A DNA stretch of 64,000 nucleotides from Zopfochytrium polystomum. Its lineage: Eukaryota; Chytridiomycota; Chytridiomycetes; Chytridiales; Chytridiaceae. The notes below the pieces were generated by a model. That model ran no database searches. It was not told the DNA's origin and saw only the letters and a list, made by a program, of their open reading frames with translations. Of this stretch, positions 1 through 64,000 are shown piece by piece. The stretch spans positions 109,501 through 173,500 of the forward strand of contig JAIVFJ010000136.1 of the NCBI GenBank assembly GCA_025765615.1. The letters run 5' to 3'. How positions within the stretch are numbered: the stretch's first letter is position 1; each line of letters begins with the position of its first letter. The translations under genes and the position numbers were made by a program.

Positions 1-48
1 CCAAAATACTCGTCCTTGTTCTGAAGGTAGCTTAGGGCACGCGGGTTG

Positions 49-1989: not shown

Positions 1990-2084
1990 TCTTGGTTGGA
2001 TCCTTGCGGAGTCCTTCTTTCGAGATTCGGTGGCCCAGGAACGGGAGGTCCAGATGAAAGAGATTACACTTAGAGGGTTTCAGC

Positions 2085-4715: not shown

Positions 4716-4990
4716 GTGGAAGAATGAGGGTCAAGTCCACATCAGGTAGCGCAGCACGAAAAGTTTCAATATGGCGAGGGTCAACAGCTTTGGAAACCCA
4801 AACCAAATGAGAGGTATTCATGAAAACATTACGAAACATAACTTCAAGAATCGATGTATTTTGGTAATGTGTGAGATGGTCAACAAATTCAGGTCCAATA
4901 CCAAAGGTAAGGTGTTTAGCTCCCACAGCAGCAAAAAGGGAGTTAAGAGCCATAAAAAAATGATGATTCAAACTAAAAATATTGAACGTA
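4465..4990 (-). other. Unassigned accessory segment 1 (between zinc knuckle and protease)
   Basis: About 175 residues between the Gag zinc knuckle and the protease that match no retroelement domain I recognise. Landmarks in reading order are VFMNTS (about 4,815), a block ending TLILPHD (about 4,720) and AHVFTD (about 4,645), then a hydrophobic PYLFFPTPDGKW stretch. The same three landmarks recur in the same order in the integrase insert of copy 2. The gag frame and the pol frame meet inside this segment (4,693-4,715). Confidence 0.5.
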
Positions 4991-5754
4991 GTTCGATCCT
5001 TCTTGAAATCAAACAGCAGGGGCTCCTTGGTTGAGTCTGAGAGCTGATTAGAGAAGGAAGGGGGCAAAGAGGGGTCATACCTCTTTGCAATGAGCGCATC
5101 AATTTCTGCAGCATGGGGGCATTCCTCACGGAAATGTCCAGGTTGCTGACAGCGGTGGCAGAGGAGCGTGGACCGGTCGCGAGAGGCGGAACGGGCACGT
5201 CGGTCATCACGACGAGGGTCGATAGGACGGGAAGCATCAGGGTAGCGGGAGTCATCACGTCGGTCATTATCACGGTGGAAATCCTGGCGCTTGTTGTCAC
5301 GGCGAGAAGGAGTGACAGGTTGTTGGATAAAACTATCGAAAGTTTCACCAACATAGGTGCGACGGGGTGAAGAACCACGAGAGTCACGATAATCATGGCT
5401 GTTGTGGCGGTCACGGTCACGGTCACGTCCAGATTGAAGGCGAAGAGCGAGAGTTGTTTGCCAGAATGCAAGACGGTTGGCAACATCCTGGGGTGTGATG
5501 GCCTCATCAAGATACATTCGTGCAGGACCAGCAGCTGTCGGAATATGGTCGCCGCTAATCTGAGCGCGCAGGAGCTCGTTGGTGCATGAACTAACAAGCT
5601 GAATTTTCAGTGCACGATCCTCAAATGGCGTTTTGAGGTGTTTGTTCAACAGTTGGAGGTGGGTGAAGCGCTGTTGTTGGGGAGCTGACCACGTTTTCAG
5701 ACCACTTAAAGTTGAGCCAGGTCTGGAGGATCTTGTCCTCCGTGTTGGCACCAA
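4693..5754 (-). CDS. Gag C-terminal part, copy 1: end of capsid, basic region, CCHC zinc knuckle
   Basis: 353-codon frame. The start is the end of the capsid-like retrotransposon gag domain (helical, Leu/Gln-rich). A long Arg/Asp region rich in RDRDR and RRDD follows, then a CX2CX4HX4C nucleic-acid-binding knuckle, CHRCQQPGHFREEC (about 5,120-5,165). Downstream is the first half of accessory segment 1. Gag packages element RNA. In copy 2 the same region (61,800-62,670) is broken into several short frames by single-base indels. Confidence 0.88.
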   Translation of the reverse strand: MVPTRRTRSSRPGSTLSGLKTWSAPQQQRFTHLQLLNKHLKTPFEDRALKIQLVSSCTNELLRAQISGDHIPTAAGPARMYLDEAITPQDVANRLAFWQTTLALRLQSGRDRDRDRHNSHDYRDSRGSSPRRTYVGETFDSFIQQPVTPSRRDNKRQDFHRDNDRRDDSRYPDASRPIDPRRDDRRARSASRDRSTLLCHRCQQPGHFREECPHAAEIDALIAKRYDPSLPPSFSNQLSDSTKEPLLFDFKKDRTTFNIFSLNHHFFMALNSLFAAVGAKHLTFGIGPEFVDHLTHYQNTSILEVMFRNVFMNTSHLVWVSKAVDPRHIETFRAALPDVDLTLILPHDVLLPA

Positions 5755-7889
5755 AGAAGAAAGAGTCGAACTTGGCCAGGAATACAGGCCATGTGAGCTG
5801 CTGACCAGAAGGGAGGGAGTTGAAGAAGTTCAAACCCTCCTGAGTCTCAAAGTTCTTGGATGAAAAGTTCTCCAAGAAGAAGGAACCATCATCCAGGTAA
5901 ACAGGTCCACGATCACCAACCTGTTTCAGCAACAAGATTAGTGTAGGCCTTAATCAGCGCCATCCGAAAGCTGAGAATCTCAGGGATGTTGTTCTGTGGA
6001 TGCTGAAGCCTTGAGCTGGAGGGATGGCATTTGCATGGCGAAATGCCTTCACTTCATCAGTCGCAAAACGAGGGTTACGGCCAGTCGTTGGAAGCTCATC
6101 GTCAGGAATGGCAGAGGTTTCTCTTCGAGAGGGCCGTCGGGAGTCGCGAGAAGAACGGTTGGCCAAACGCACAGGTGCAACTGGAGCAGGAGTCCAAGAC
6201 GTTTGAGCAAAGCTTGTCCCAGGTGGGCGGAAGCACTCTGCAGAGGAGCGAACAGGCCAGTGGGAGGAGTCAATCCGCGGGGAGGCCCAACGGAGTTGCT
6301 AGAGGGAGCACCTCTAGCTGGAACCGACTGACTCGGTAAGACCGTACTAGCCGAAGCAGACGGTAGCGGCGGGGCAGATGTGAATCTGCGGCGCGGCGTA
6401 ACAAAGACAAACCGGTTGGTGGGGGAGGTAATACCACCAGGTGTGAGCAGGATATCCATCGTCCATGGAAGCTGTTCCACAGAGTTGTCCTGAACGAGGG
6501 GGAAGACGGGCACGCTGGAGTATAAGAGCTTCCCCAGGTGAATGAGGGGGAAATACACTATTGTTGACAACAAACAGGCCATTCAGGAAGTCGAAGTCCA
6601 GAGCAGGCCGGTCCAGTCGAAAATACGCATGAGGCGCAGGAACAGAGCGCCTTGTGTACTCAGGATGAATTCGCAAAGCAATGTGGACCGAGGTAGGCCA
6701 GGCAACATCCAATGCAAGGCTGTGTCGGCGAATCTCTCGACCTTGAGAATGCAAAGTGAGGTTGGGAGCCTGATTATAGTCCATCGTTAAATGCCGAAGG
6801 ATAGAGGCAGCCCAGAAAGGAGTCCAAGGAGGGAAGGTACCGCCAAGGTCAGTGTTGTACCATCGCAGAAGAGTGTGATAGGGCAACGAATCAAGCTCGA
6901 CGTCAAAGCAGTTAGAAGCCATTTCATCATCTGGGTTAATCTCCACCAGAGCGAGGAATCCTTGTCCAGTAGCCTCAGGATCAAGTGAGTGCGATGTGAA
7001 AACAAAGAGATGTGTACCCAGCCTGGAAGAAACCAAAGGGCGGTATGCCAGAAGGATCTCCAAATGGGTCGTCACGGTAAGGGTCGCCACCATCAGGGGG
7101 GCGACGACCGTCGTTGGGCTTGCCAGCGTCAGCAGGAGCACCAGAGCCAGAACCAGCAGGAGGAGCAGGTGGAGCAGGCCCTTTGCCTTTGCGGTTGTCA
7201 GAGGGAGGTTCCTTCTTTAGCGTCAGGTGACTACTCTCCACAGCTGAGTTATCTTCACTGTCGGAGTCGTCATGTTGAGCAGGGTCCCACTCGAGAAGAT
7301 TATCAACGTAGGACACTGTTGGTGCCGGAGAGAGGACGATCGTCAGACCGAGGAAGGCGAAATCTTAGTCTCTGCCATGAGGGTAGACAGAGGGTGAGGT
7401 TCGTCAGACTTGAGTTCCTCAGGCTCGGTTGTGCGCATTGCAGCAAGGATGGAGACTGGGATACCAGAAGGATTCTTCTTGGTGGGTGCTTCAAGTCCAG
7501 GCAGCAAGGCCAACGGAGCATAGCCTGAGCGAGCAGGGGTCGAACGAAAGTTGTGCGTGCTGCGGCCCATAACAGAAGCACCAGCAGGAGCAACTTGTTG
7601 CACAGACTCAGGTGAGGACTGAAGGGTCTCCACGAAACGATTGGTGGCAGCTGAACTCGTACTGAAAGGCCCACCAGCGACAACAGAGGGGCCAGGGCGT
7701 GAAGCCTGGGCAGCAGCCATCTTTGCTCCAGCTGCAGCAGAGATGTCAATGGGGGCACGAGGGGCAACCTTGGGCGGGTCAGGCTGTGTAACAGTCGAGA
7801 CTTTGGAGCGCAGGAATCCATGACCTGTCGAGGCTTCAGTTGAGGCCGCAGTCGGGTTTGAAGGCGGAGTCGGGGACGAGGAGGACATC
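5755..7889 (-). pseudogene. Gag N-terminal part, copy 1 (frame broken)
   Basis: Read from an ATG at 7,889 (MSSSSPTPPSNP), through Ala/Pro/Ser-rich sequence and an acidic stretch (about 7,260), to a globular region (FDVELDSLPYHTLLRWYNTD, about 6,840-6,900) and a capsid-like block with TWPVFLAKFDSFFFG (about 5,755-5,800). That last block resembles the family pattern of the retrotransposon gag domain. The reading frame is interrupted at several places, for example an extra C near 5,921 that copy 2 lacks. At roughly 700 residues before the zinc knuckle this Gag is unusually long. Whether the breaks are real or consensus errors is unresolved. Confidence 0.7.
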
Positions 7890-9665: not shown

Positions 9666-10861
9666 CGTGCTTGCAGTAACTGAGGGTGCACGAGAGGGCG
9701 GTCCTCCAAGGGCGCTTGGTTGGATCCAGCGTGTGAACGGCTTTAGGGCCGATCGGCGAGCAATCTGGACCCAGCACGAGAAGTCGAAGAATAGCCGGCA
9801 TCAGATGCCCCCTGGGTCGAGATGCAGGCAGGCCTTGTTTGGTTCCAAGAACCAGCTTGTGAGTTCGAGAGACCAGGAGAGAATCGTGGCGAGAGTTACG
9901 AAATAGTTTTGTGCCGTCGCAGCATCAGCAGTTCCGGAAACATGCAGGGACCGGACCTTTTGGGCGCGCGGAGGGCGTCGACGGAGTCGCGCCATCAGAT
10001 CCATGAGCTTCCATCCTTGGGCAGGTCTAGCAGGGTGGGAAACTCCTGTGTGTAGTTGTGGTAGCTGAGCATAGATCGGTGACTGAGCGTTGGGGATCAC
10101 GACCTCGATCACGGCTGTAAGGCGAAGTAGGTTACTACGACATTCGCAAAGTGAGATTAAAGCATACCGATGGGGCGGTGTGTACCTTCCACGTCTCGCG
10201 GTTGATTAGGCAGCCGTGTTGAAGGCAACGGGGCGATCATGGCCCTGCAGCAGCTTGCTGGGTTTGGGTGCCGAGGCAGCAGGGGAGCTGTGGGCGGCGC
10301 TCATGGCAGCGATGGCAGCGGCACACGCGGCGGCAGGGGGATCGCCGGGCGTTGGCGACGGCGTCATTCATCTTTGTGAAAAGGAAAGATTTGTTTTCTT
10401 TCTTTCTTTTTCTAAAAGAAAAGAAGACAGCATAAAGAAAATATTTTCTCATTCAGAAAATGAGGGAAGAGGAAAGTTCCGGAACTGGGCGGGAATCGAT
10501 CCTGCTCCATCCAAGGTGTTAGGTGCTGTGCGTTAACCAACTGCACAACACAACCCTTTGTGACCACAGATCTTTGAAGATCGGAGGTTTCTGAGTTCAA
10601 ACCTTGTATTGAGCTGTGTAAAAAACACAAGTTCTTTCTGACTGCATTGATCGCATTTGGAGTCTGCACGGCGGATCGAACCTAGGTCCGATGCCGACTG
10701 GGGTGCAGTGCGGAACTCCGTTTCAAAGCCACTAAACAAGAAAGGCTTTTGAAGTTATGCCACACAAGACGAATTGTGGCGCTATGAGGCACTTCAAAAA
10801 GAAAGAGAGCCACCCACTTTATGAGACTCCCAGTTCTCAATAAAGTTAGGAAGCCCCCCCC
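9666..10861 (-). other. Leader between 5' LTR and first ORF
   Basis: About 1.2 kb from the LTR inner edge to the first ATG. The sequence next to the LTR starts with a run of eight G in the sense direction followed by CTTCC. No TGG-type tRNA primer site is visible there, so priming could be unusual (self-priming, as in Tf1, is one possibility). A 103-codon minus-strand ORF (9,801-10,112) has natural-looking composition but no recognisable domain. A T/A-rich near-palindrome sits at about 10,390-10,465. Confidence 0.5.
10487..10556 (-). other. tRNA-like remnant in the leader
   Basis: On the minus strand there is a D-arm-like block with paired GTGC/GCAC around AGTTGGTTAA, followed about 35 bases later by GGATCGATTCC, one base off the Pol III B box. 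The anticodon stem does not pair, so this is not a functional tRNA. It may be a tRNA-derived repeat or a Pol III-like signal in the retroelement leader. Confidence 0.4.
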
Positions 10862-11863
10862 TGTGAGACTGTGCTCTCTAACTCCTCACCTAGGGCTATA
10901 GGTGGAAACTAGAGCATGGACCTAAATACCAATCCTGACTAATGAAAAGGGGCAAAAGGGGGGTGTCTAGGGGCACTAGACAGGAAAGTGTATTTGGAGT
11001 CTTAAAAAGCCCAAGAAAAACACAAATAAATCTCTAACACAAAAGAGGGGTTTCTCACACCAAAGCATGAAACAGACACAATCACAAAAGAAAGCATAAT
11101 CCTCTGGTGCAAGACACAGAAGGGTTTCATCTGGGGCACAAGGCCAAAGCCAAGTTAGACCAGAGGCAGAACCGACTTGATCGGTAAGACCGACTGAATC
11201 GGTAAGGGGAGTGACAAGCCACTACAACCCATCAAAAGAAACAACAAAAGAAATAAACAACAAGTCAAACCCTGAGTTGGAGGGGGTTGGAGAGACAAAG
11301 GGCAGACACAAGGAACAGTTAGTGTGCAGAGGTGCCTGTTGAACCAAATCAGAACTGTTTTCCACTTAACAGAACCAGACACAACTTGTCTCACTCCAAG
11401 GAGAGTGTTCCAACTCAATCCAAGGAAGAGGGTGCAACCAGGGTGGGAGACAGTGGGACTCTTCTTGCTCCATCCTACCAGGAGACAGACCTCTGCCTCA
11501 CCAGGCCAGAGAGAATAACCTGTCTTAGAAGCAAGGAAGGTCAATACCCACTCCCACACACAAGGAAGACACCAAAGACAACCACAGGTATTAGCATGAA
11601 AGGAAGAGGGTCTGAACCCAGTGAACCAGGCCCACCAAAGGCCAAAGGAACCATCACCGGGGATAGGGAGGAATACCAGAGAGACCATACCACCACATAA
11701 TACCTGACCAGCCAACTCATTCATATCACCTTGAGAGACCTGGATTTGAAGCGATGTATTGACAGGAACCGGCGAGGCACTACCACAGTTTTACCCTCCC
11801 ACCGTCCATCATCAAGTAGCTCCTACCCCAGACCAGCCTAAACAGTATGTGCAGAATGGTGAG

Positions 11864-11945
11864 GTGCACTGGGACTTGAACCCAGCACACTGCCATAAAT
11901 GGCCAAGAGAACCAATTCTCCTGTCACACACCAGGGGACTGCCAC
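11864..11945 (-). other. tRNA-like segment in LTR (perfect T-arm and B box)
   Basis: On the minus strand, a perfect 5-bp stem CTGGG/CCCAG closes a TTCAAGT loop (11,869-11,885), containing GGTTCAAGTCC, an exact match to the Pol III B-box consensus. The rest does not fold into a normal cloverleaf. An identical copy is in the other LTR (offset 41,396). Confidence 0.45.
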
Positions 11946-12639
11946 CCCCAGCTCATACACACAGTCAGAGAAGGAATAAGGGCAGGCAAGAAGACTTCAG
12001 GTACAGGTTCTAAGGGGCAACAAGAATGGGGGGTGGGCTGCTTAAATAGGAGAGGGTTGGAATCAGCAGGGTGAAGGAAGAAGGAAGGGAAAAGAGGGGA
12101 AAACATATACAAAAGAACAAAACAATAAATAAAACAACAAAGAAGAGAGAGGAGGAGTGAGTCACCAAACAATGGGGCTGAGCCATCAAACAAGGAAGAC
12201 AGCTCAGAAAATCATGGAGCATTTCTTGGCATCAGCTGCCAAGAAAGATGGAGGAGATGGAGAGAGCTGGTTGGTGCAAAGAGGAAGACAGTCACTCACA
12301 GCCACAAAAGAAAAGAGAGACACACACAGAGACAATAAACAAACAAATAAATAAAAGATAAAACAGTAAAAACAGGAAAAACAGGATAAACTACTAATTG
12401 AAAAAATAAGTAAAAATCATCAATAAAGAAAGGAGAAAAAACCCTATGATCTCATACCCTTTCATGAGGCCTTTCATCATGGTAGCTTATGTAGCAGCTC
12501 TGTGTTAGCTCTGTGTACACCTGGACTCTGTACTTCTACCCACTTAAGCACATCATCCTAATCCATTTCCAAAAGTGAGGGGGCAAGGCTTAGTCATTGT
12601 GCAGAACTTAGCATTTCTGCATCATTCAGTCAGTGACTG

Positions 12640-12720
12640 CCAGCATGTCTCGAACTTAGCACCTTTCCCATTGAAGGGAGCGCTCTACACCACTGAGCTA
12701 GAGGGCCTCTGGCCAGTAGT
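12640..12720 (-). other. tRNA-like segment in LTR (intact A box and D arm)
   Basis: On the minus strand, TAGCTCAGTGG (an exact A box) with paired GCTC/GAGC D stem, and an AGTTCGAGAC B-box-like stretch about 40 bases downstream. The T stem does not pair well, and the loop where an anticodon would lie has T at position 37, so it is tRNA-derived rather than a working tRNA. Duplicated in the other LTR. Confidence 0.5.
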
Positions 12721-13010
12721 GCAGAGCGGCCTGAGCCATTCGGCCTGCAACTTAGTGCGTAATAATAACATGAATAATATACATGGCCGCGGCTAAGAGA
12801 CAGTCCAAATCTCAGTGGTTCGGCTTGCAGGGACAATAATAACCCATGAAAATAATAAGAAATGGGGTCCAGCCGTGTTACGTCACTTTCGTGAAACGTT
12901 GTTTGGTCAAGTCAAATTGATAATCCTCACAAGTTATCAGTTAAAAAAGCGAGGTATACTCTTTTTATTTGAGGTCGCAGGCTCAACAACCTGTCGTCCT
13001 CACATCAATA

Positions 13011-13129
13011 ATTCATAACAGAGTTTTTTTTTCTCTTTCTCTCCAAGTTGGGGAGAAGGACCACCCACAAACACACATCTTCACTTCATTCACTCCTTCC
13101 ACTCACTCACTCAGAGTAGACTGTTTACA
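13011..13129 (+). repeat. Left terminal inverted repeat
   Basis: Reads inward from ATTCATAACAGAG through a T run, CTCTCCAAGTTGGGGAGAAG (itself a short hairpin) and CACTCACTCACTC to AGTAGACTGTTTACA. It is the reverse complement of 16,083-16,198 with few differences, mainly at the T run. Confidence 0.85.
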
Positions 13130-16082: not shown

Positions 16083-16198
16083 TGTAAACAGTCTACTCTG
16101 AGTGAGTGAGTGGAAGGAGTGAATGAAGTGGAGATGTGTGTTTGTGGGTGGTCCTTCTCCCCAACTTGGAGAGAAATCAGAAAAACTCTGTTATGAAT
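16083..16198 (-). repeat. Right terminal inverted repeat
   Basis: Inverted counterpart of 13,011-13,129, from TGTAAACAGTCTACTCTGAG to CTCTGTTATGAAT. Confidence 0.85.
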
Positions 16199-52015: not shown

Positions 52016-52133
52016 TGTAAACAGTCTACTCTGAGTGAGTGAGTGGAAGGAGTGAATGAAGTGGAGATGTGTGTTTGTGGGTGGTCCTTCTCCCCAACTT
52101 GGAGAGAAAGAGAAAAAAAACTCTGTTATGAAT
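52016..52133 (-). repeat. Third copy of the ~118-bp terminal repeat
   Basis: Same orientation as 16,083-16,198, ending CTCTGTTATGAAT, followed by AATTGATACATAATG. No inverted partner is visible nearby, so it belongs to a truncated element. It lies 124 bp left of the chromovirus LTR. Confidence 0.85.
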
Positions 52134-52257
52134 AATTGATACATAATGATGATATGCACACTGTAATAGTTGCTAGGCAAGTGTGACTGACACAGGGTAA
52201 AAACCTCTCCAATATTATCTGCTTGAGCAGAGGAGGAGGAAAACTGTTAACACTGGG

Positions 52258-54400
52258 TGTGAGACTGTGCTCTCTAACTCCTCACCTAGGGCTATAGGTG
52301 GAAACTAGAGCATGGACCTAAATACCAATCCTGACTAATGAAAAGGGGCAAAAGGGGGGTGTCTAGGGGCACTAGACAGGAAAGTGTATTTGGAGTCTTA
52401 AAAAGCCCAAGAAAAACACAAATAAATCTCTAACACAAAAGAGGGGTTTCTCACACCAAAGCATGAAACAGACACAATCACAAAAGAAAGCATAATCCTC
52501 TGGTGCAAGACACAGAAGGGTTTCATCTGGGGCACAAGGCCAAAGCCAAGTTAGACCAGAGGCAGAACCGACTTGATCGGTAAGACCGACTGAATCGGTA
52601 AGGGGAGTGACAAGCCACTACAACCCATCAAAAGAAACAACAAAAGAAATAAACAACAAGTCAAACCCTGAGTTGGAGGGGGTTGGAGAGACAAAGGGCA
52701 GACACAAGGAACAGTTAGTGTGCAGAGGTGCCTGTTGAACCAAATCAGAACTGTTTTCCACTTAACAGAACCAGACACAACTTGTCTCACTCCAAGGAGA
52801 GTGTTCCAACTCAATCCAAGGAAGAGGGTGCAACCAGGGTGGGAGACAGTGGGACTCTTCTTGCTCCATCCTACCAGGAGACAGACCTCTGCCTCACCAG
52901 GCCAGAGAGAATAACCTGTCTTAGAAGCAAGGAAGGTCAATACCCACTCCCACACACAAGGAAGACACCAAAGACAACCACAGGTATTAGCATGAAAGGA
53001 AGAGGGTCTGAACCCAGTGAACCAGGCCCACCAAAGGCCAAAGGAACCATCACCGGGGATAGGGAGGAATACCAGAGAGACCATACCACCACATAATACC
53101 TGACCAGCCAACTCATTCATATCACCTTGAGAGACCTGGATTTGAAGCGATGTATTGACAGGAACCGGCGAGGCACTACCACAGTTTTACCCTCCCACCG
53201 TCCATCATCAAGTAGCTCCTACCCCAGACCAGCCTAAACAGTATGTGCAGAATGGTGAGGTGCACTGGGACTTGAACCCAGCACACTGCCATAAATGGCC
53301 AAGAGAACCAATTCTCCTGTCACACACCAGGGGACTGCCACCCCCAGCTCATACACACAGTCAGAGAAGGAATAAGGGCAGGCAAGAAGACTTCAGGTAC
53401 AGGTTCTAAGGGGCAACAAGAATGGGGGGTGGGCTGCTTAAATAGGAGAGGGTTGGAATCAGCAGGGTGAAGGAAGAAGGAAGGGAAAAGAGGGGAAAAC
53501 ATATACAAAAGAACAAAACAATAAATAAAACAACAAAGAAGAGAGAGGAGGAGTGAGTCACCAAACAATGGGGCTGAGCCATCAAACAAGGAAGACAGCT
53601 CAGAAAATCATGGAGCATTTCTTGGCATCAGCTGCCAAGAAAGATGGAGGAGATGGAGAGAGCTGGTTGGTGCAAAGAGGAAGACAGTCACTCACAGCCA
53701 CAAAAGAAAAGAGAGACACACACAGAGACAATAAACAAACAAATAAATAAAAGATAAAACAGTAAAAACAGGAAAAACAGGATAAACTACTAATTGAAAA
53801 AATAAGTAAAAATCATCAATAAAGAAAGGAGAAAAAACCCTATGATCTCATACCCTTTCATGAGGCCTTTCATCATGGTAGCTTATGTAGCAGCTCTGTG
53901 TTAGCTCTGTGTACACCTGGACTCTGTACTTCTACCCACTTAAGCACATCATCCTAATCCATTTCCAAAAGTGAGGGGGCAAGGCTTAGTCATTGTGCAG
54001 AACTTAGCATTTCTGCATCATTCAGTCAGTGACTGCCAGCATGTCTCGAACTTAGCACCTTTCCCATTGAAGGGAGCGCTCTACACCACTGAGCTAGAGG
54101 GCCTCTGGCCAGTAGTGCAGAGCGGCCTGAGCCATTCGGCCTGCAACTTAGTGCGTAATAATAACATGAATAATATACATGGCCGCAGCTAAGAGACAGT
54201 CCAAATCTCAGTGGTTCGGCTTGCAGGGACAATAATAACCCATGAAAATAATAAGAAATGGGGTCCAGCCGTGTTACGTCACTTTCGTGAAACGTTGTTT
54301 GGTCAAGTCAAATTGATAATCCTCACAAGTTATCAGTTAAAAAAGCGAGGTATACTCTTTTTATTTGAGGTCGCAGGCTCAACAACCTGTCGTCCTCACA
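52258..54400 (-). repeat. 3' LTR of copy 2 (2,143 bp)
   Basis: Nearly identical to 10,862-13,004, with ends TGTGAG/CTCACA. It sits immediately downstream, in element sense, of a polypurine tract. Outer flank CTGGG. Contains the same tRNA-like segments (13,260-like positions shift by 41,396: about 53,260-53,341 and 54,036-54,116). Confidence 0.95.
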
Positions 54401-54414
54401 GTACCCTCTTTTTT
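54401..54414 (-). promoter_or_regulatory. Polypurine tract for plus-strand priming
   Basis: In element sense AAAAAAGAGGGTAC directly abuts the LTR start TGTGAG, the expected position and composition. Confidence 0.8.
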
Positions 54415-54464
54415 ATTCTCGCAGCCATAGATGCGACAAATTAAAATAAGGTGGGTCCAAGGCG

Positions 54465-57400
54465 TCACTTGGATTTTTGCAGTCGGAGGCTACGTCGCGT
54501 TCCGGTTGCAGGTGGTGGGTTTACTGGGATGAGCTTCTTTGTGGTATTCATTGGTTTTACAGGAGTTTCTGCACGTGTTGCAGGACTTGTGTTTTTGGGA
54601 CCTGGAGCGTTGGAGCGCTTGGAGGGTCGGTTTGCAATGAATTCTGTTCGTCGCTGGAACTCATCTGGATCGTTCTCTTTTACAAGAGCCCAGTAGTCTT
54701 GAATAGCTTTGGGGTGTAAGTCTTCTTCAAGTTGGTTCCAGTCATGCTTGGAAGAGTATCCTAACCATTTGGTTAGATACATATATTTTTCGCCATCGAA
54801 TGTGTGAGATTTAATGCGCTCGATCTCGTATTCGATATCGGCGGGGTCTTCTTCATCATCTTCAGGCTCAAAGTATCGCCTGACAAATTCAGGGTGGATG
54901 CCAGGAGCCATCGTGGTTTTTGAAGAGGGTTGGCGGTAGCGTTTCTTAGCGGTTTGCCATTTTTCAAGTTCTTCGTCATATGTTGCACCAGCGAGGTCCG
55001 CGGCTTCTTCTGCGAAGTCAGCAGGAGCTCGCTCAGTGTAAGGTCGCAGTCGTGAAACATGCACAGTTCTGGTCACAATCTGATTTCCAGGGAATGCTTC
55101 AACAATTGTGTATTGCGCTTCAGAGTCTTTGCCGGTGATTGCAATGACTCGTACAGGGCCAACCCAACGGAAGAGGAGTGAGCGGTTCTTATCGTTAAGT
55201 TTGCCAGGATTATCAAGAGGAACAGAGAGCCAAGCCCTCTGTCCGAGTTGAATTTTGTGAGCTTCTTTATCTTTTTCAAGGGAAGCAAGGTGCAAAAGCT
55301 CTTGATTCTGCTTTGCTCGTGTCATAACAATGTTCTGCGCAGCAGTAAGCTTGTCAATAACTTCAGCTATGTAGGGTTCTGTCAGAATGAGTTCTGAACT
55401 CATTGTTTCAGATAGATCTGTTGAGGGGAGCTCAAACAGAAGTGGTGCCGAAGCGCCAGCCCACAGCGGGAGAGCTAGTGCAAGCGTTTCAAGTGAAGGC
55501 GGTGTGAACAGGTTTAGGGTAATTTGGTGTCCTGTTTTGTTGGCAAAAAGGTACACAAGTTCTCCGTTTCTTGAAAGAACAGTGAGCCCGCGTTTGAATT
55601 CAGTCACAGCAACTGATTTCAGCAAGTGTTCAGGACAAATGAGGTGTCGAGGCCCGTAAACATAACAGGCAGAACGATCAGTAAAAACCTGTGATGCGGC
55701 CAGAGATGTCGTCATTCCACCAGGATTCAGTGAGTTTCGCAGAAAAGTGGGGAATTTCAAGTGTTCAGGTCGGCGTCCTGGAATTGCAGGTGGACGCTCA
55801 TGAAAGATGTAAAGAACATCAATGGAGTATCTGGAGATAAACTCGCTTAGCACTTCGTGAACAGGGTACTCTGTGGGGAAGGGCCAGAGTTTCATCGGCA
55901 AATACTGTCGGAAGGAGAGCCTAGGATTTGTTGTTCGCATGAACACAATCCTAAGTTGCGGTGAAGAAGGCAGGGGCTCGCTTGAAAAGAGAGGGAGTGC
56001 TTTCTTTGAGTACACTGCTGTTGTTGTCAGTGTTTCAGGTGTGTTAACTACAGGAGGTTTAAATTCAAAGCTCTGAGCAAGAAACACATTGTCACCCAGC
56101 AGCAATGTTGTACTATCAGGTTCGGCATCTTCTTCTTCAGGAAGAAGTGCTTTTTCCTCTGTGCTGAGAGGATCATCTCTGTCAACTCCAGAGAACATAT
56201 CAATGGGGAGTCGGCAGTCGCGTCCATGCATCAGGAAAAACGGAGTTTCTCCAGTCAGTGGGTGGACGTGCGTTCTGTACGCAAAAAGAGCATACGGAAG
56301 CACAGTGGGCCAGTCGTCATGGGATGACTGATCAATGAAAGACCGTAAGGTTGTCTTCAGTGTTTTGATGTAACGTTCTACAGCACAGCGTGGTGATGAG
56401 AAGGTCTTCTTGGTTCCGAGTGCTTTACAGAGAGCAGCAAACAATTCACTGGAAAAGGGCTGTCCTCTGTCGGAGTGACGGAACACAGGGATTCCATGTC
56501 TGCAAAACACTTGTTCTACAAGGACTCGTGCAGCAGTTTCTGCGGTAATGTCTGTGACAGGGACTGCTTCAACCCAGCGGGTGAAATAATCAATCACAAC
56601 CATAATGTACTGGTAACCTTCAGTGGTCTTTTTGAAGGGGCCAGCAAAGTCAACAGAAATTCGTTCCCAGGGATACATTCCAATGGGGACAGGATGCAGA
56701 ACTCCGGAACGGGAGGGCGCAGGTTTACTCTTTTGGCAAGTTTCACAACTTGCAATGTGGTTGCGGAGGTCTCTACCCATAGTGGGCCAGTAGAAACGTT
56801 CAGCAAGGGTGTCAAACACTTTCCGAGCACCAAGGTGTCCAGAAAGGAGGTCGTCGTGGACAAGTTTAAGAACATTTCTCCGCAAGTTGTCAGGAATGCA
56901 TATGGCAAGTCTTAGTGGGGTTCTCTTCATCATGAAAGAGTATGAATCTCTCACGGCGTGGAGAACTCCGTGTCGAATCACCATCATGGCTGCTCGTGTA
57001 GTCATGGTGCGAAGAGATACTCCGTCAGGAAGAATCCCATCTTTCCTAAAACGAAGGATTGGTCCAAAATACTCGTCCTTGTTCTGAAGGTAGCTTAGGG
57101 CACGCGGGTTGTCAAGAACTTGTACTTCTGAGTGGAAACTTTCTAGGAGGGCTTCTGGTGTTACGACCAACTCAGGCGTAACAGGAGCTGTGTCAAGTGG
57201 TGAGACTGCTGTTTCAGTTTCTTGCTCTGTTGGCACAGCAGGGAGGAGGTCTCCAAGGTTTGATAGAAACTCAATGCAGTAGTGGTCGCTGACAGGAAGT
57301 CCATCAGCAGCAGGAATTTCATTGTGAACTTGAACACTGTACTGTGAAGGGTCAATGTCTGCACTCACAAGGAAATAATCAATTCTCAAGAGAGGAACCC

Positions 57401-59465
57401 ATTCACTCGAAGAGACAGATCTCATGGTCCAGGTCAGTCCATGAGCAGAAGGGAAACTCTTTCGGAAGGCATCAGTATAGCCAGATGCTAAGAATCTGTC
57501 GAGCCATTGTCTTTCTTCAGCCAAAAGGCCAGGAAACGTAGCGTTGTACTTTTTCAGTGTAAAACGCAAGGAATGATCAACATCAAGGTCAGTGTGTGCG
57601 ATGTTCAGATCTCCAGCAACAATGACAGTAAAGCCTTGTAGTTGGAGCGCAGAGCAGTTTCGTGTGATGTCTTCAAGGAAAATCATCTTGTAAGGATGGC
57701 GGGTGCCAGTTTCATCAGCAAACGAACTTGGAGCATAAACGTTCACAATTGCAAATGGCCCCACAAGAAGAACAGCAACACGTCCCTCTCGGGTGTGTTG
57801 GGGGTCTCCTAAATAGGTGAATTCTTTGCCGTTCAACTCAGAACGGTAGAATATTGCAACTCCACTTATTCCGGTTCGGGGATCGCAAAGCAAAAGCTTC
57901 CATCCCTTGATCTGGGAAAGTTGATCAACAAGTTTCTGGCGCTTAGCACCAAGACGTGTTTCTTGCAAACAAACAATACAAGAGGATTGTGAGTTGAGGT
58001 AAGACTCAAATCGTTTGGCAGGGTCAGTTTCTTGAGCAAAAGTGACACCGGATTTGTGAGCAACCTTAAGCCAGGAGTTCAGTCCGTTAATATTCCATGA
58101 GGAAATACTGAAGGACGGTTTCCACTTAGGTCGTTCAAAAACTTCTGCTTTCGCAGGTTCGCGTCGCCGTATGAGATGATGGCGGAGGAGATCCTTTCGA
58201 ACCTCTGGGTCAAAGAGAGATATTTCTCGAGGAGGCCCTTCATTGTCTGAATCCAACGCATTGGTTTCAGATTCAAAGTCCACATCAGTAGCAGTGGCTA
58301 CCTCTTTTTTCGCTTTGTCCTTACTTGTTACAGTAAAGATCGCGTTTTCAACAGGGGACATTTCTGTCTGTGTTGCAGCATCTTCAGAGAACAGGAAGCG
58401 CTTCTCTTTCCTTGCAGTGGGTCCAAGGAAAACACGGGAGAGGGCGTCTGCAACGATGTTCTGTTTGCCTGAGACATGGACAAGCTCGATGTCGTAGTCA
58501 GAAAGTGCATAGGCCCATCGTCCAAAACGGCCAGTCAGAGGTCCTTTCTTGAACAGTTGAAGGAGAGGAGCGTGATCAGTCTCAATAATCACAGAGCGGT
58601 TGAAGATATATCGTTCAAAGGTGTCGACAGCCCATACAACTGCGAGTCCTTCGCGATCGTGAGTCCAATAACGCGTTTCCGCATCATTTAAAACTCTTGA
58701 AGCGAATCCAACAGGTTTCCGTTTCTCGCGGTTGTGGGGGTCATCAGGGTCAACTATGTAGAGTGCAGCGCCAAGGGCATAACCAGAGGCATCACATTCT
58801 ATTAATAGCTTGTCATTAGCAGTTGGGGTCACGAGTTTGATGTCGCATTGAAGCTCTTTTCTCAAGAGGTTAAAGGCATCTTCCTGTTGAGATCCCCACA
58901 GAAATGGGTTCTTTCCAGAAAGAAGGTTATATAGCGGTTTTGCTTTATCAGAGAAAGCCTGAATGAAGCGCTTGAAGTAGTTTGCAAAACCGAGGAACTG
59001 CTGTAGCTGGTTGAGCGTTTTGGGCATTGGGTACTGGTCCAACTGAACAATCTTGGTTGGATCCTTGCGGAGTCCTTCTTTCGAGATTCGGTGGCCCAGG
59101 AACGGGAGGTCCAGATGAAAGAGATTACACTTAGAGGGTTTCAGCTTAAGGTTGTACTCGCTGAAGCGGGAGAAAACACTCTCGAGGTGCGCAAAGTGCT
59201 CGTCGACGGAGTTGGAGTAAACTACAACATCGTCAACATAAACCATGCAATATAACCACTTAATTCCAGCAAGAAACGTGGTCCATAGCTCTCTGAAAGG
59301 TTGGAGGGCTGTTACAGAGTCCAAAGGGCATAACATTGAACTCATGGAGTCCTTGCGAGGAGATAAAAGCAGTCTTGTGACGGTCTTCCTCAGCGACAGG
59401 GATTTGCCAGAATCCACTAAGTAAATCCATAGCACTGAACACATATTTGTTACTAATTGCATCAA
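54465..59465 (-). CDS. Pol, copy 2: RT end, RNase H, EEP endonuclease, integrase, chromodomain
   Basis: 1,666-codon frame. The first ~65 codons are out of register because of an extra A near 59,275; after that it reads true: YVDD of RT, RNase H (ECDASG, DREGLA, ETDHAP, VADALS), EEP endonuclease (57,255-58,115), integrase H2C2 finger (HDDLLSGHLG...CETCQ, about 56,740-56,860), DDE core (VDFAGPF, HSDRGQPF, AVERY), an unassigned insert (about 55,400-56,090), the GPY/F module (RWVGPVRVI, about 55,145-55,172) and a C-terminal chromodomain (54,685-54,840). The protein copies, processes and inserts the element; the chromodomain should direct it to modified histones. Stop codon 65 bp before the LTR. 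Confidence 0.95.
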   Translation of the reverse strand: MMQLVTNMCSVLWIYLVDSGKSLSLRKTVTRLLLSPRKDSMSSMLCPLDSVTALQPFRELWTTFLAGIKWLYCMVYVDDVVVYSNSVDEHFAHLESVFSRFSEYNLKLKPSKCNLFHLDLPFLGHRISKEGLRKDPTKIVQLDQYPMPKTLNQLQQFLGFANYFKRFIQAFSDKAKPLYNLLSGKNPFLWGSQQEDAFNLLRKELQCDIKLVTPTANDKLLIECDASGYALGAALYIVDPDDPHNREKRKPVGFASRVLNDAETRYWTHDREGLAVVWAVDTFERYIFNRSVIIETDHAPLLQLFKKGPLTGRFGRWAYALSDYDIELVHVSGKQNIVADALSRVFLGPTARKEKRFLFSEDAATQTEMSPVENAIFTVTSKDKAKKEVATATDVDFESETNALDSDNEGPPREISLFDPEVRKDLLRHHLIRRREPAKAEVFERPKWKPSFSISSWNINGLNSWLKVAHKSGVTFAQETDPAKRFESYLNSQSSCIVCLQETRLGAKRQKLVDQLSQIKGWKLLLCDPRTGISGVAIFYRSELNGKEFTYLGDPQHTREGRVAVLLVGPFAIVNVYAPSSFADETGTRHPYKMIFLEDITRNCSALQLQGFTVIVAGDLNIAHTDLDVDHSLRFTLKKYNATFPGLLAEERQWLDRFLASGYTDAFRKSFPSAHGLTWTMRSVSSSEWVPLLRIDYFLVSADIDPSQYSVQVHNEIPAADGLPVSDHYCIEFLSNLGDLLPAVPTEQETETAVSPLDTAPVTPELVVTPEALLESFHSEVQVLDNPRALSYLQNKDEYFGPILRFRKDGILPDGVSLRTMTTRAAMMVIRHGVLHAVRDSYSFMMKRTPLRLAICIPDNLRRNVLKLVHDDLLSGHLGARKVFDTLAERFYWPTMGRDLRNHIASCETCQKSKPAPSRSGVLHPVPIGMYPWERISVDFAGPFKKTTEGYQYIMVVIDYFTRWVEAVPVTDITAETAARVLVEQVFCRHGIPVFRHSDRGQPFSSELFAALCKALGTKKTFSSPRCAVERYIKTLKTTLRSFIDQSSHDDWPTVLPYALFAYRTHVHPLTGETPFFLMHGRDCRLPIDMFSGVDRDDPLSTEEKALLPEEEDAEPDSTTLLLGDNVFLAQSFEFKPPVVNTPETLTTTAVYSKKALPLFSSEPLPSSPQLRIVFMRTTNPRLSFRQYLPMKLWPFPTEYPVHEVLSEFISRYSIDVLYIFHERPPAIPGRRPEHLKFPTFLRNSLNPGGMTTSLAASQVFTDRSACYVYGPRHLICPEHLLKSVAVTEFKRGLTVLSRNGELVYLFANKTGHQITLNLFTPPSLETLALALPLWAGASAPLLFELPSTDLSETMSSELILTEPYIAEVIDKLTAAQNIVMTRAKQNQELLHLASLEKDKEAHKIQLGQRAWLSVPLDNPGKLNDKNRSLLFRWVGPVRVIAITGKDSEAQYTIVEAFPGNQIVTRTVHVSRLRPYTERAPADFAEEAADLAGATYDEELEKWQTAKKRYRQPSSKTTMAPGIHPEFVRRYFEPEDDEEDPADIEYEIERIKSHTFDGEKYMYLTKWLGYSSKHDWNQLEEDLHPKAIQDYWALVKENDPDEFQRRTEFIANRPSKRSNAPGPKNTSPATRAETPVKPMNTTKKLIPVNPPPATGTRRSLRLQKSK
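54685..54840 (-). other. Chromodomain at the integrase C-terminus
   Basis: About 50 residues: YEIERIKSHTFDGEKYMYLT, then KWLGYSSKHDWNQLEEDL and an amphipathic helix. The aromatic-cage-like Y, W and Y/W positions and the KW.GY....NTWE-like block fit chromoviral chromodomains, which bind methylated histone H3. Confidence 0.88.
55400..56090 (-). other. Unassigned accessory segment 2 (insert in integrase C-terminal region)
   Basis: About 220 residues between the integrase core (ending GRDCRLPIDMFSG) and the GPY/F module, where other chromoviruses have a short helical linker. Landmarks in order are VFMRTT (about 55,935), a block ending VLYIFHE (about 55,800-55,820) and ASQVFTD (about 55,680). They parallel VFMNTS, TLILPHD and AHVFTD of accessory segment 1. 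No family recognised. Confidence 0.5.
57255..58115 (-). other. EEP (ExoIII/APE-like) endonuclease domain in Pol, copy 2
   Basis: Same domain as 193-1,053, here inside an uninterrupted frame running from RNase H into integrase, which shows it is a real polyprotein part. All motifs are intact: WNINGL at 58,080-58,097 and SDHYCIEF at 57,268-57,290. Confidence 0.93.
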
Positions 59466-61697
59466 AGACTTCCTCTATTCGCGGGAGCGGATATCGGTCT
59501 TTGATGGTGATTTCGTTAACCTTTCGAAAGTCAGCACAGAAACGCCAAGAACCGTCGGGTTTCTTTGCAAGCACGACAGGGGCAGCAAAAGGTGACTTGC
59601 TTTCACGAATCACATTTGCTTCCTTCATTTTTGGATATGTTCACGTAACACTTCGGTTTCTGCCAAGGCCCTCAGGGTAAGGGTTACTTGCAGGAATCCG
59701 TGCACCTTCTTGGAGTTGAATGGTGTGTGGTGGTGGGAACTTTGTTCCAGTAATCTTACCAGGTCGGAAGATGTCAATATAGCGGTATACCAATTCTTTG
59801 AGGCGAGCCACAACATCTTTGCCAAAAGCTTCGTTAATGTGGTCCGTTTTCAGTTTAGCCCAGATTTCGTCGTCGGTCATCTGGGACTCAGGTGGGAGAT
59901 ATTCGAGCTTATCCCCATGTGTTGTGTCACGTCGGGGCATATCAGCTACAGGTTGAGGCCTGAGCTTCAATGGCATCTTCATTCAACAAGTGTTTCTTCA
60001 GAACCTGATTCAAAAATGCGCTCTATTTTAGCCATCTCTTCAAAAGAGGGTGGTATAATAGAATCAGGGAAGATTTCAACAGAGCCTTGCGTGGTGTATT
60101 GTTGTCCAGCTTCAGGAAAACGAGGGTAGAACGAGGTATGTGAACTATCCAGGTCGTTCAAAGCAGGAGAGAAAAGACTCTGTGTCAGTTGGATTATGAC
60201 AGTGCACAACATTGGAGCATTGTCATAAGGTGCTCAGGTTCATCATGTAGTGTGTCAGGGCACATTAATGATATGCGACTCAGGATCTGGTGGTACATCA
60301 ATAAAGTGCGCAACACAATTGCCTTTTCGTAAGGAAACAGGTGTATCACGCAAGTTCCATCAAAGGAATGGTGAATATCTTTGGGTTGCCATCTTCGTTA
60401 TGAAGGTCAGCAGCAGTAAATATGGATCCAGGGAAATGTATCTGTTTGTCCATCAGAGATCCAACTGGTACAGCGTGTACTGTTGATTCCCTGAATTGGA
60501 GCGGCTCTCGTAGTCGTACTTTTACAGCAATGACTGCATTTTGGATCAAGGACAATCTTTTCTGCCACTACGAGGTCAATAATGTCACTTGGCACTAATT
60601 CTGCGCTCATGGACTCAGGAATTCGTTGGTAAGACAACAAAGGGGTCTTAAACCAGCAGTCTTCTCCACGCGGCGTAGTGGCTTCCCACATAATCGCCTG
60701 GTGTTTGAAGGAGATGATTGTGTTGAAGGCCTGCATAGTCGGAGTTCCAATGATGACAGGTTTTGGGCAGTGGCTCATAACTGAAAATCGCAGCCATTTA
60801 CCCACATGCGCCAGAGTGTCCAAAATTAACTTTCAGATACACGTATCCAAGAACTGGTACATGTCCTCCAATTCCTCTGTTCATTACAGGGCGAGAGAGT
60901 GGTTGGATGACAGGCATTTTCGGCAAAGTACTCAGAAAAGAGGTGGTCACAACATTGTGACTTGAGCCAGAATCAATAAGACAGTCTGATACTTTGCTTC
61001 CGTGCACCCACATGGCAGCACGGGCAATAGTTGAGGCTGTTTTATCAAAAGCAACATACGAATCAGGATATTCAGGAGCAACATAAACAAGAACTTTGTT
61101 GCTGAAACGGACTTGTTTTGTTTCTCCTGGCGGTAAGCCAGAATTTGATTTGCAATCTTTGTTGTTGAGCTCGTCAAATTCGACGAGGGGAGGTTGCAAA
61201 ATTATGTCTTCAACTCTGCTGTTCGGTTCTGTCACAGACATGACAGAGCCTCCCGGGGGGTTGAAAATGGAGGGGGTACTTGAAGAGGTACTCCAGCCAG
61301 AAGTATCTGAGGCAGGCGAGAGGGTCTCACCGTCATCATTTGCCAGAGGAGCTGGAGCAGCAGGGGGCGTTTGTGGGGGAATCGGTTTCCCAAAGAACAC
61401 GCGGAGTCCCGAAGGTCGGGACAGTTGTTGCATTCGCATCGAACGCGCGAGCGAAGGTGGAATGTGAGGTAAGGGTGGACATATAGATTCAACACAGCGC
61501 AAATGGCCATGTATCTTCTTATATTTGGACTTACTACTCACAAATTCACGAAACGCTTTAGAGCGTGGAGGAACAATCATGTACGCCTTACACGTCCATT
61601 TACCATCAGGTGTTGGAAAGAATAAGTACGGGAGATTGCTCTGGGCCGTTGATGAGGATGTTGCAGGAAAGTAGTGTGCAATCCATTTTGGAGTCAT
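59260..61697 (-). pseudogene. Pol, copy 2: RT N-terminal half and protease region (frame broken)
   Basis: Corresponds to 2,200-4,650 of copy 1, where a single frame exists. Here it is split: 59,260-59,628 (RT up to FQRAMDHV), 59,641-59,982, 60,407-60,823 and 60,798-61,697 (protease with DCLIDSGSSHN). The breaks are single-base insertions or deletions, many in homopolymers (for example near 59,630, 59,952, 60,165, 60,213, 60,358, 60,530 and 60,800). Either a decayed copy or consensus errors. Confidence 0.8.
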
Positions 61698-61699
61698 TC

Positions 61700-64000
61700 C
61701 AAGTGGGTCAGTGAAGACTGTGCAAGGGTAATGACAGCAGTGGGATCGCGTTCTTTTAATTCAGAGCGGCAGCAGAACGTCATGTGGAAGAATGAGGGTC
61801 AAGTCCACATTAGGTAGCGCAGCACGAAAGTTTCAATATGGCGAGGGTCAACAGCTTGGAAACCCAAACCAAATGAGAGGTATTCATGAAAACATTACGA
61901 AACATAACTTCAAGAATCGATGTATTTTGGTAATGTGTGAGATGGGTCAACAAATTCAGGTCCAATACCAAAGGTAAGGTGTTTAGCTCCCACAGCAGCA
62001 AAAAGGGAGTTAAGAGCCATAAAAAAATGATGATTCAAACTAAAAATATTGAACGTAGTTCGATCCTTCTTGAAATCAAACAGCAGGGGCTCCTTGGTTG
62101 AGTCTGAAGAGTTGATTAGAGAAGGAAGGGGGCAAAGAGGGGGTCATACCTCGTTGCAATGAGCGCATCAATTTCTGCAGCATGGGGGGCATTCCTCACG
62201 GAAATGTCCAGGTTGCTGACAGCGGTGGCAGAGGAGCGTGGACCGGTCGCGATAGGCGGAACGGGCACGTCGGTCATCACGACGAGGGTCGATAGGACGG
62301 GAAGCATCAGGGTAGCGGGAGTCATCACGTCGGTCATTATCACGGTGGAAATCCTGGCGCTTGTTGTCACGGCGAGAAGGAGTGACAGGTTGTTGGATAA
62401 AACTATCAAAAGTTTCACCAACAATAGGTGCGACGGGGTGAAGAACCACGAGAGTCCAGATAATCATGGCTGTTGTGGCGGTCACGGTCACGGTCACGTC
62501 CAGATTGAAGGCGAAGAGCGAGAGTTGTTTGCCAGATGCAAGACGGTTGGCAACATCCTGGGGTGTGATGGGCCTCATCAAGATACATTCGTGCAGGACC
62601 AGCAGCTGTCGGAATATGGTCGCCGCTAATCTGAGCGCGCAGGAGCTCGTTGGTGCATTGAACTAACAAGCTGAATTTTCAGTGCACGATCCTCAAATGG
62701 CGTTTTGAGGTGTTTGTTCAACAGTTGGAGGTGGGTAAGCGCTGTTGTTGGGGAGCTGAACCACGTTTTCAGACCACTTAAAGTTGAGACCAGGTCTGGA
62801 GGATCTTGTCCTCCGTGTTGGCACCAAAGAAGAAAAGAGTCGAACTTGGCCAGGAATACAGGCCATGTGAGGCTGCTGACCAGAAGGGAGGGAGTTGAAG
62901 AAGTTCAAACCCTCCTGAGTCTCAAAGTTCTTGGATGAAAAGTTCTCCAAGAAGAAGGAACCATCATCCAGGTAAACAGGTCCACGATCACCAACTGTTT
63001 CAGCAACAAGATTAGTGTAGGCCTTAATCAGCGCCATCCGAAAGCTGAGAATCTCAGGGATGTTGTTCTGTGGATGTGAAGCCTTGAGCGGAGGGATGGC
63101 ATTTGCATGGCGAAATGCCTTCACTTCGTCAGTCGCAAAACGAGGGTTACGGCCAGTCGTTGGAAGCTCATCGTCAGGAATGGCAGAGGTTTCTCTTCGA
63201 GAGGGCCGTCGGGAGTCGCGAGAAGAACGGTTGGCCAAACGCACAGGTGCAACTGGAGCAGGAGTCCAAGACGTTTGAGCAAAGCTTGTCCCAGTGGGCG
63301 GAACACTCTGCAGAGGAGCGAACAGGCCAGTGGGAGGAGTCAATCCGCGGGGAGGCCCAACGGAGTTGCTAGAGGGAGCACCTCTAGCTGGAACGACTGA
63401 CTCGGTAAGACCGTACTAGCCGAAGCAGACGGTAGCGGCGGGGCAGATGTGAATCTGCGGCGCGGCGTAACAAAGACAAACCGGTTGGTGGGGGAGGTAA
63501 TACCACCAGGTGCGAGCAGGATATCCATTGTCCATGGAAGCTGTTCCACAGAGTTGTCCGAACGAGGGGGAAGACGGGCACGCTGGAGTATAAGAGCTTC
63601 CCCAGGTGAATGAGGGGGAAATACACTATTGTTGACAACAAACAGGCCATTCAGGAAGTCGAAGTCCAGAGCGGATGGTCCAGTCGAAAATACGCATGAG
63701 GCGCAGGAACAGAGCGCCTTGTGTACTCAGGATGAATTCGCAAAGCAATGTGGACGAGGTAGGCCAGGCAACATCCAATGCAAGGCTGTGTCGGCGAATC
63801 TCTCGACCTTGGGAATGCAAAGTGAGGTTGGGAGCCTGATTATAGTCCATCGTTAAATGCCGAAGGATAGAGGCAGCCCAGAAAGGAGTCCAAGGAGGGA
63901 AGGTACCGCCAAGGTCAGTGTTTGTACCATCGCAGAAGAGCGTGATAGGGCAACGAATCAAGCTCGACGTCAAAGCAGTTAGAAGCCATTTCATCATCTG
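61700..64000 (-). pseudogene. Gag, copy 2 (frame broken, cut by window end)
   Basis: Capsid-like block intact in 62,693-63,343 (MALIKAYTNLVAETVGDRG), including a stretch frameshifted in copy 1. The Arg/Asp-rich region and zinc-knuckle half (LLCHRCQQPGHFREEC, about 62,190-62,240) are in broken frames. The N-terminal globular region continues past the window edge. Confidence 0.78.

Follow-up and report, generated by a model that had tools for sequence, protein, structure and literature searches.

A putative repair-type (ExoIII/APE-like) endonuclease domain in the Pol of Ty3/gypsy LTR retrotransposons of a chytrid genome

The Pol open frame of a Ty3/gypsy-type LTR retrotransposon in the window (by which we mean the whole stretch of DNA analysed, 64,000 nucleotides, C136:109501-173500 of an assembly of 80.16 Mb in 761 contigs) contains a complete EEP domain between RNase H and integrase. 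It is near certain that an EEP is held in the Pol of these LTR elements. As the best explanation of anatomy and mechanism together, we propose that a cellular ExoIII/APE-type nuclease was captured into Ty3/gypsy Pol and that it would clean the element's own cDNA, a joint reading whose chances we judge to be about even. Nucleases of the EEP kind serve many LINEs for entry and cells for repair, whereas LTR elements are believed to need no more than reverse transcriptase (RT), RNase H and a DDE integrase.

The open reading frame (ORF) list of the window holds a 1669-aa frame at 54465-59474 (minus strand, as are all element features given below). Its Pfam matches begin with the C-terminal part of RT, continue through RNase H, EEP and integrase, and end with a weak chromodomain. 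RVT_1 is matched at its end only (aa 67-130, 59085-59276), followed by RT_RNaseH (aa 220-327, 58494-58817), Exo_endo_phos (aa 459-731, E 1.6e-18, 57282-58100), the zinc-binding domain Integrase_H2C2 (aa 860-918, 56721-56897) and the rve catalytic core of the integrase (aa 937-1029, 56388-56666); the Chromo match (aa 1549-1595, 54690-54830) scores 23.2 bits with a cut-off of 25.1. The EEP motifs WNINGL (58080-58097), LQETRL (57951-57968), GDLNIAHTDLD (57582-57614), RIDYFLVS (57363-57386) and SDHY (57279-57290) can be read from the window letters in the same frame. The initial annotation had described a chromodomain Ty3-type Pol in which a complete EEP separates RNase H from integrase, and the Pfam order and the motifs within one frame bear this out. 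The upstream part of RT (59260-59640) is found in another frame of the ORF list, and comparison with intact copies places the first ~60 aa of the 1669-aa frame out of frame, which reveals a frameshift in the RT of this copy (copy 2); these ~60 residues are therefore not real Pol. Further upstream, a script located the motif LIDSGSS (60960-60980, in an ORF with no Pfam match), which we take to be that of the protease, and a pattern search by script found the CCHC zinc knuckle of Gag at 62189-62230.

A second EEP, that of copy 1, lies at 193-1053 (C136:109693-110553), and its protein is 100% identical to that of copy 2. Over the 6955 bp that can be aligned (window positions 1-6933 with 57064-64000) the identity of the two copies is 98.7%, the differences being 48 mismatches and 40 gap openings. 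Gap openings are nearly as frequent as mismatches, which may reflect sequencing errors in repeats or decay.

The earlier observation that the motifs are kept in two copies holds for copy 1, and the number of copies proved to be far higher. A genome search with the EEP retrieved 102 matches, many of which are pieces, and the xth profile scored above cut-off at 31 places, namely one exon of the host APE1 and 30 retroelement copies. By EEP identity to the window (group A), these fall into groups B (78-79%), C (54-56%), D and E (36-40%), F (28-29%) and G. An integrase lies 241-602 nt downstream of the EEP at 23 of the 30 retroelement places and 2047 nt downstream at three (group G); no integrase match was found downstream at the other four. 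The longest open frames reach 3604 aa in group B (contig C251) and 3741 aa in group E (C40 and C61), and RT, RNase H, EEP, integrase and chromodomain share one frame in those parts of the long B and E frames that were read. The Chromo profile scores above its cut-off in groups D (34.9) and E (32.2) and below it in B (19.0), as in the window; no chromodomain was detected by Pfam in group F.

Seen from the integrase, 33 of the 37 loci of the A-E kind have an EEP match no more than 1.5 kb upstream. The remaining four (C26, C19, C85 and C244) have no RNase H match nearby either, among the best 150 scored places, and look like fragments. Copies lacking the EEP, which had been named as a possible objection, are, among these 37 loci, confined to the four that look like fragments. 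It had also been suggested that the EEP region could be an assembly joint; since many contigs show the identical domain order, this is excluded. More broadly, an artefact, either a joint or a nested LINE, has a negligible probability. It could draw on the presence of EEP-bearing LINEs in the genome and on the many indels of the window copies; against it stand the identical order in many contigs and in groups only 36-79% identical to the window, the long open frames, and the dN/dS constraint and EEP tree placement described below. A larger Ty3 family of the same genome (family H), many copies of which have 1255-aa frames, has a gap of only ~150 nt between RNase H and integrase (e.g., C18:208490-209026 and 209177-209779). 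No EEP was seen in the single H copy that was read, nor in another family, I.

The affiliation of the domain was analysed by profile and by phylogeny, as the initial annotation had advised, and by structural relatives. NCBIfam TIGR00633 (xth, exodeoxyribonuclease III) matches the window EEP with 135.5 bits, the curated cut-off being 99.05. Its best relative in the PDB is ExoIII (5j8n, 2.4e-26), and APEX1/APE1 chains appear lower down (from 8.7e-20); catabolite repression control protein, which has the EEP fold, is also among the matches. In the EEP tree, two LINE rows from the same genome are set apart from all 35 remaining rows by a branch of 3.1 (100/100); this branch is long, and the two rows have an odd composition. 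Judged by its profile score and its tree position apart from these two LINE endonucleases, the EEP is of the repair (ExoIII/APE) type and not of the LINE type. A nested LINE, or an EEP of LINE-type origin, is ruled out by the xth profile and the EEP tree. Capture from the host's own APE1 (C103) is not supported, as APE1 is placed elsewhere in the EEP trees. The host APN2 (C228) is only a fragment and was left out of the second EEP tree, which comprised 30 of the 37 rows and was also used for the one-clade test given below; both LINE rows, APN2, P0017, P0021, P0023 and P0024 (long or partial) had been removed.

Compared with cellular ExoIII and APE1, the retroelement EEPs are alike in scoring above the TIGR00633 cut-off and in carrying the full catalytic set, and differ in a replaced residue at the position of APE1 Trp280 and, in groups A-E, in an insert of ~20 residues after the first motif, as seen relative to the bacterial rows. 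With the APE endonucleases of LINEs they have in common the EEP fold, the catalytic residues and the failure to retain the Trp280-type residue; they differ from these by their separate tree branch and by belonging to elements with LTRs and a DDE integrase.

Several observations indicate that the domain is in use. The ten active-site columns are intact in 18 of 20 fetched copies, and the other two are truncated matches that show gaps, and no substitutions, at these columns. By the Nei-Gojobori method, RNase H, EEP and integrase all have a dN/dS of 0.088 when group A is compared with B (EEP dS 1.54, near saturation); when the two group F copies (C104 and C20) are compared, RNase H has 0.080 and EEP 0.050. 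For the close group B copies of C251 and C117 the ratios are 0.037 (RNase H), 0.052 (EEP) and 0.505 (integrase), the last being based on very few changes; the remaining EEP pairs are saturated or nearly identical. From active-site retention together with constraint it follows that the EEP domain is used. Catabolite repression control protein has lost its nuclease activity, and its presence among the PDB matches is the point in favour of the EEP being a non-enzymatic module that binds nucleic acid or serves as a spacer. We consider this improbable, given that groups as distant as 36% identity, and F and G too, retain the complete set of catalytic residues.

The position of APE1 Trp280 is occupied by Leu, Phe or Met in ten of ten retroelement rows, while Trp is found there in 16 of 23 database proteins and in host APE1; the APE1 numbering of the active-site columns is taken in part from PMC8565326. 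According to a passage of the same paper, Trp280 of APE1 pushes and bends abasic DNA, and the L1 endonuclease has Ser at this position (PMC8565326). Since the Trp280-type residue is replaced, activity on abasic sites is not assured. The residue bears on the substrate and is not a criterion of the xth family. Three ExoIII-like database proteins with a long C-terminal extension (P0018-P0020, 417-418 aa) have Leu, Asn and Tyr there.

Copy 1 measures 17.8 kb end to end and is bounded by two LTRs of ~2.14 kb that are 99.81% identical and have TGTGAG...CTCACA ends; the 5' LTR occupies 10862-13004, and the 3' LTR is found beyond the window (C136:104676-106821). In copy 2 the 3' LTR (52258-54400) is 99.95% identical to 10862-13004. 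Beyond the window the match of copy 2 to copy 1 ends at position 2678 of the stretch that was read there, and no LTR match was found in that stretch. LTRs of group E end in ...CATA. A polypurine stretch adjoins the 3' LTR of copy 2 (54401-54420, approximate limits), reading AATAAAAAAGAGG and then TAC, and is the same in groups B and E.

The usual primer-binding site begins with TGG. Directly after the 5' LTR of copy 1, where that site is expected, there is a G tract (10854-10861, the same in C117); the sequence there is GGGGGGGGCTTCC, and it does not start with TGG. Groups A and B alike have eight G adjoining the 5' LTR, and an ordinary tRNA primer site was not seen at that place. As to self-priming, no complement of 7-12 bases was found in the LTR. 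The window as a whole has no tRNA or Rfam match.

Comparison of flanks revealed a TCAA target duplication of copy 1 (right-hand copy at 13005-13008). The window also contains a paralogous empty site (52016-52208), to which the joined flanks of copy 1 match over 194 columns with 95.4% identity and in which TCAA is present once. Of seven elements tried, from groups A, B and E, the six that could be read at both ends (groups A and E) all have exact 4-bp duplications, TCAA in copy 1 and CGGT, GCCT, AGCA, AAGG and TTCT in group E; the seventh (C117, group B) ran into another element and has no outer right end. Because of the 4-bp duplications and the matching empty site, integration in groups A and E is ascribed to the DDE integrase. 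The short repeat into which copy 1 inserted is dispersed and occurs three times in the window (13005-13129, 16083-16198 and 52016-52208). In C49, LTR matches at 54463, 68421 and 82386 correspond to tandem elements with a common middle LTR, and C117, where an LTR starting at 111703 is followed by an internal start, shows the same arrangement. The outer ends of the C49 tandem retain the TTCT duplication, as expected from recombination between copies.

These data bear directly on target nicking or an alternative route into the genome, which had been put forward as possible roles of the EEP and which the six duplications and the empty site contradict. In a LINE-like entry, the EEP would nick the target, and the resulting 3' end would prime reverse transcription or aid insertion. 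The EEP is indeed the nicking domain of many LINEs, and the Trp280-type residue is lost as in the L1 endonuclease, but to Leu, Phe or Met and not to Ser. Besides the duplications and the empty site, the complete LTRs, the constraint on integrase and the repair-type character of the EEP speak against such an entry, which we regard as very improbable overall and as largely refuted for groups A and E.

Two further groups extend the distribution of the EEP. Group F (C104 and C20) is a distant Ty3 lineage whose integrase is 26-29% identical to that of A-E; the order RNase H, EEP, integrase is as in A-E, with the C20 integrase on another frame. In group G, of which one copy (C55) was read, the EEP is located between protease and RT and there is none between RNase H and integrase; C79 and C143 match this copy with equal spacing. 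G groups with F in EEP, RT-RNase H and integrase trees. In the EEP trees, A-E form one clade (99/98 and 100/99) and F and G another (100/99 and 100/100); a single clade uniting the two is neither supported nor rejected (p-AU 0.452, second EEP tree, 30 rows). In a Pol tree built without the EEP (unrooted, 8 rows, two of them partial), all EEP-bearing groups are split at 98/97 from families H and I, the two EEP-less representatives, and the inner groupings are those of the EEP trees. Since the position of the EEP in G differs and G is allied with F, the EEP has either moved within Pol or been acquired more than once. By their sequence these elements are classed as Ty3/gypsy-type LTR retrotransposons, A-E as chromovirus-like and F and G as a second lineage, where the chromovirus label rests on the chromodomain and the domain order and RT was compared within this genome. 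Tentatively, and with somewhat less than an even chance, the groups may represent an old Ty3-type clade with a repair nuclease of its own, captured from a cellular gene of the ExoIII/APE family other than the host's present APE1, constrained as strongly as integrase, moved within Pol, and acting in cDNA repair or trimming in the particle.

What could such a nuclease do? We suppose that the EEP would be a working metal-dependent phosphodiesterase, made within Gag-Pol and packed together with RT and integrase, and that it would act on cDNA during or after reverse transcription. Its most likely task would be to cut abasic sites or to remove blocked 3' ends of the element's own DNA; on cDNA cleaned in this way RT could finish, and the LTR ends would become usable by integrase, the insertion itself still being carried out by the DDE integrase. 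Processing of cDNA ends is possible, and cDNA repair or 3'-end cleaning is our first choice for the probable role. We prefer the latter because of the slot used by the lentiviral dUTPase, to which the proposed logic would be akin, and because uracil excision leaves apurinic DNA. In the relevant passages of PMC4531489, the dUTPase of non-primate lentiviruses is encoded in pol between RNase H and integrase, and uracil excision results in apurinic DNA, whose repair involves an apurinic endonuclease together with other enzymes.

The main rival is a changed substrate, e.g., RNA/DNA or primer remnants. The EEP would then be an extra processing nuclease serving reverse transcription at its RNA/DNA stage (a second RNase H-like activity or primer removal) and not a DNA-damage enzyme. 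ExoIII and APE1 have RNase H activity, which counts for this alternative, as do the position of the EEP directly after RNase H in groups A-F and the loss of the Trp280-type residue. Capture of an extra RNase H is, moreover, known in Ty3/gypsy Pol from a passage of PMC5348765. The group G EEP, however, sits between protease and RT, and the EEP active site is of the DNA phosphodiesterase type; we therefore consider this alternative unlikely, if by no means far-fetched.

Hypermutation is not shown to be a driver: C>T or G>A changes account for 196 of 593 singletons in group B, while the figure is 170 of 660 for group A and 15 of 20 for group E. In the five group E copies compared (EEP plus 1.5 kb on each side), 10 of 15 C>T or G>A changes are at CpG, a pattern that resembles what deamination of methylated CpG would leave in young copies.

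Enzyme capture by Ty3/gypsy elements is known as such; what is new here is the class of enzyme and the constraint on it. Chromoviruses of fungi and plants, e.g., the Tcn1 clade as described in a passage of PMC2864245, have the order RT, RNase H, integrase, chromodomain in common with the present elements, as well as LTRs and a polypurine tract; the present elements add, after RNase H and before integrase, the EEP of ~275 aa. Non-primate lentiviruses and some fungal LTR elements likewise carry a captured DNA-hygiene enzyme in Pol, the dUTPase (passages of PMC4531489 and PMC2864245), although this is a nucleotide hydrolase and the EEP a nuclease. The two are also comparable in position, since dUTPase stands between RNase H and integrase in lentiviruses, like the EEP of groups A-F, and, among the varying places it takes in some fungal LTR elements, between protease and RT in one family, like that of group G (as far as the passage of PMC2864245 goes). 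In Tat, Archon and Chronos, the last of which also has a chromodomain, an extra nuclease accompanies the original RNase H in Ty3/gypsy Pol; that nuclease has an archaeal-type RNase H fold, here it is an EEP (passages of PMC5348765). LTR elements with Exo_endo_phos have been reported among the Kuafuorterviruses of animals, where a passage of PMC11673190 calls the domain "only present sporadically", in contrast to the EEP described here, which is fixed in several groups and constrained.

The initial annotation knew of no described lineage with this layout, and we found no description of a clade of this kind in topic searches of open-licence PMC full texts. A survey of 121 angiosperms, covering 25,565 consensus sequences, reports 15 uncommon extra domains, and the section on them does not name an EEP (PMC9289625).

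The presence of a constrained EEP in several Ty3-type groups of one genome suggests an extra nuclease step between reverse transcription and integration. With it, another enzyme class joins dUTPase and the extra RNase H among Pol captures. If the cDNA-cleaning reading is true, these LTR elements would mend or trim, inside the particle, the cDNA that they make, and a repair nuclease would belong permanently to their reverse transcription. The constrained EEP also makes it possible to test, with one purified domain, whether cDNA quality limits LTR elements. In annotation, the rule "EEP present, hence LINE" can misname elements.

Relatives were also sought in sequence collections. Scans of IMG/VR yielded either no relatives or 14 loci that have an EEP relative and near which RT, RNase H and integrase gave no significant match (best E 0.13), and one scan of GTDB prokaryotes yielded none; these are viral and prokaryotic collections, which say little on other eukaryotes. 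With group F as the query, none of 8000 scored protein candidates was above threshold. With the window Pol, a single one among 2731 candidates was, P0001 (948 aa), whose Pfam accessions fit a group II intron-type RT with an N-terminal EEP. P0001, which comes from metagenomes or unnamed sources, thus appears as another RT-EEP fusion outside LINEs.
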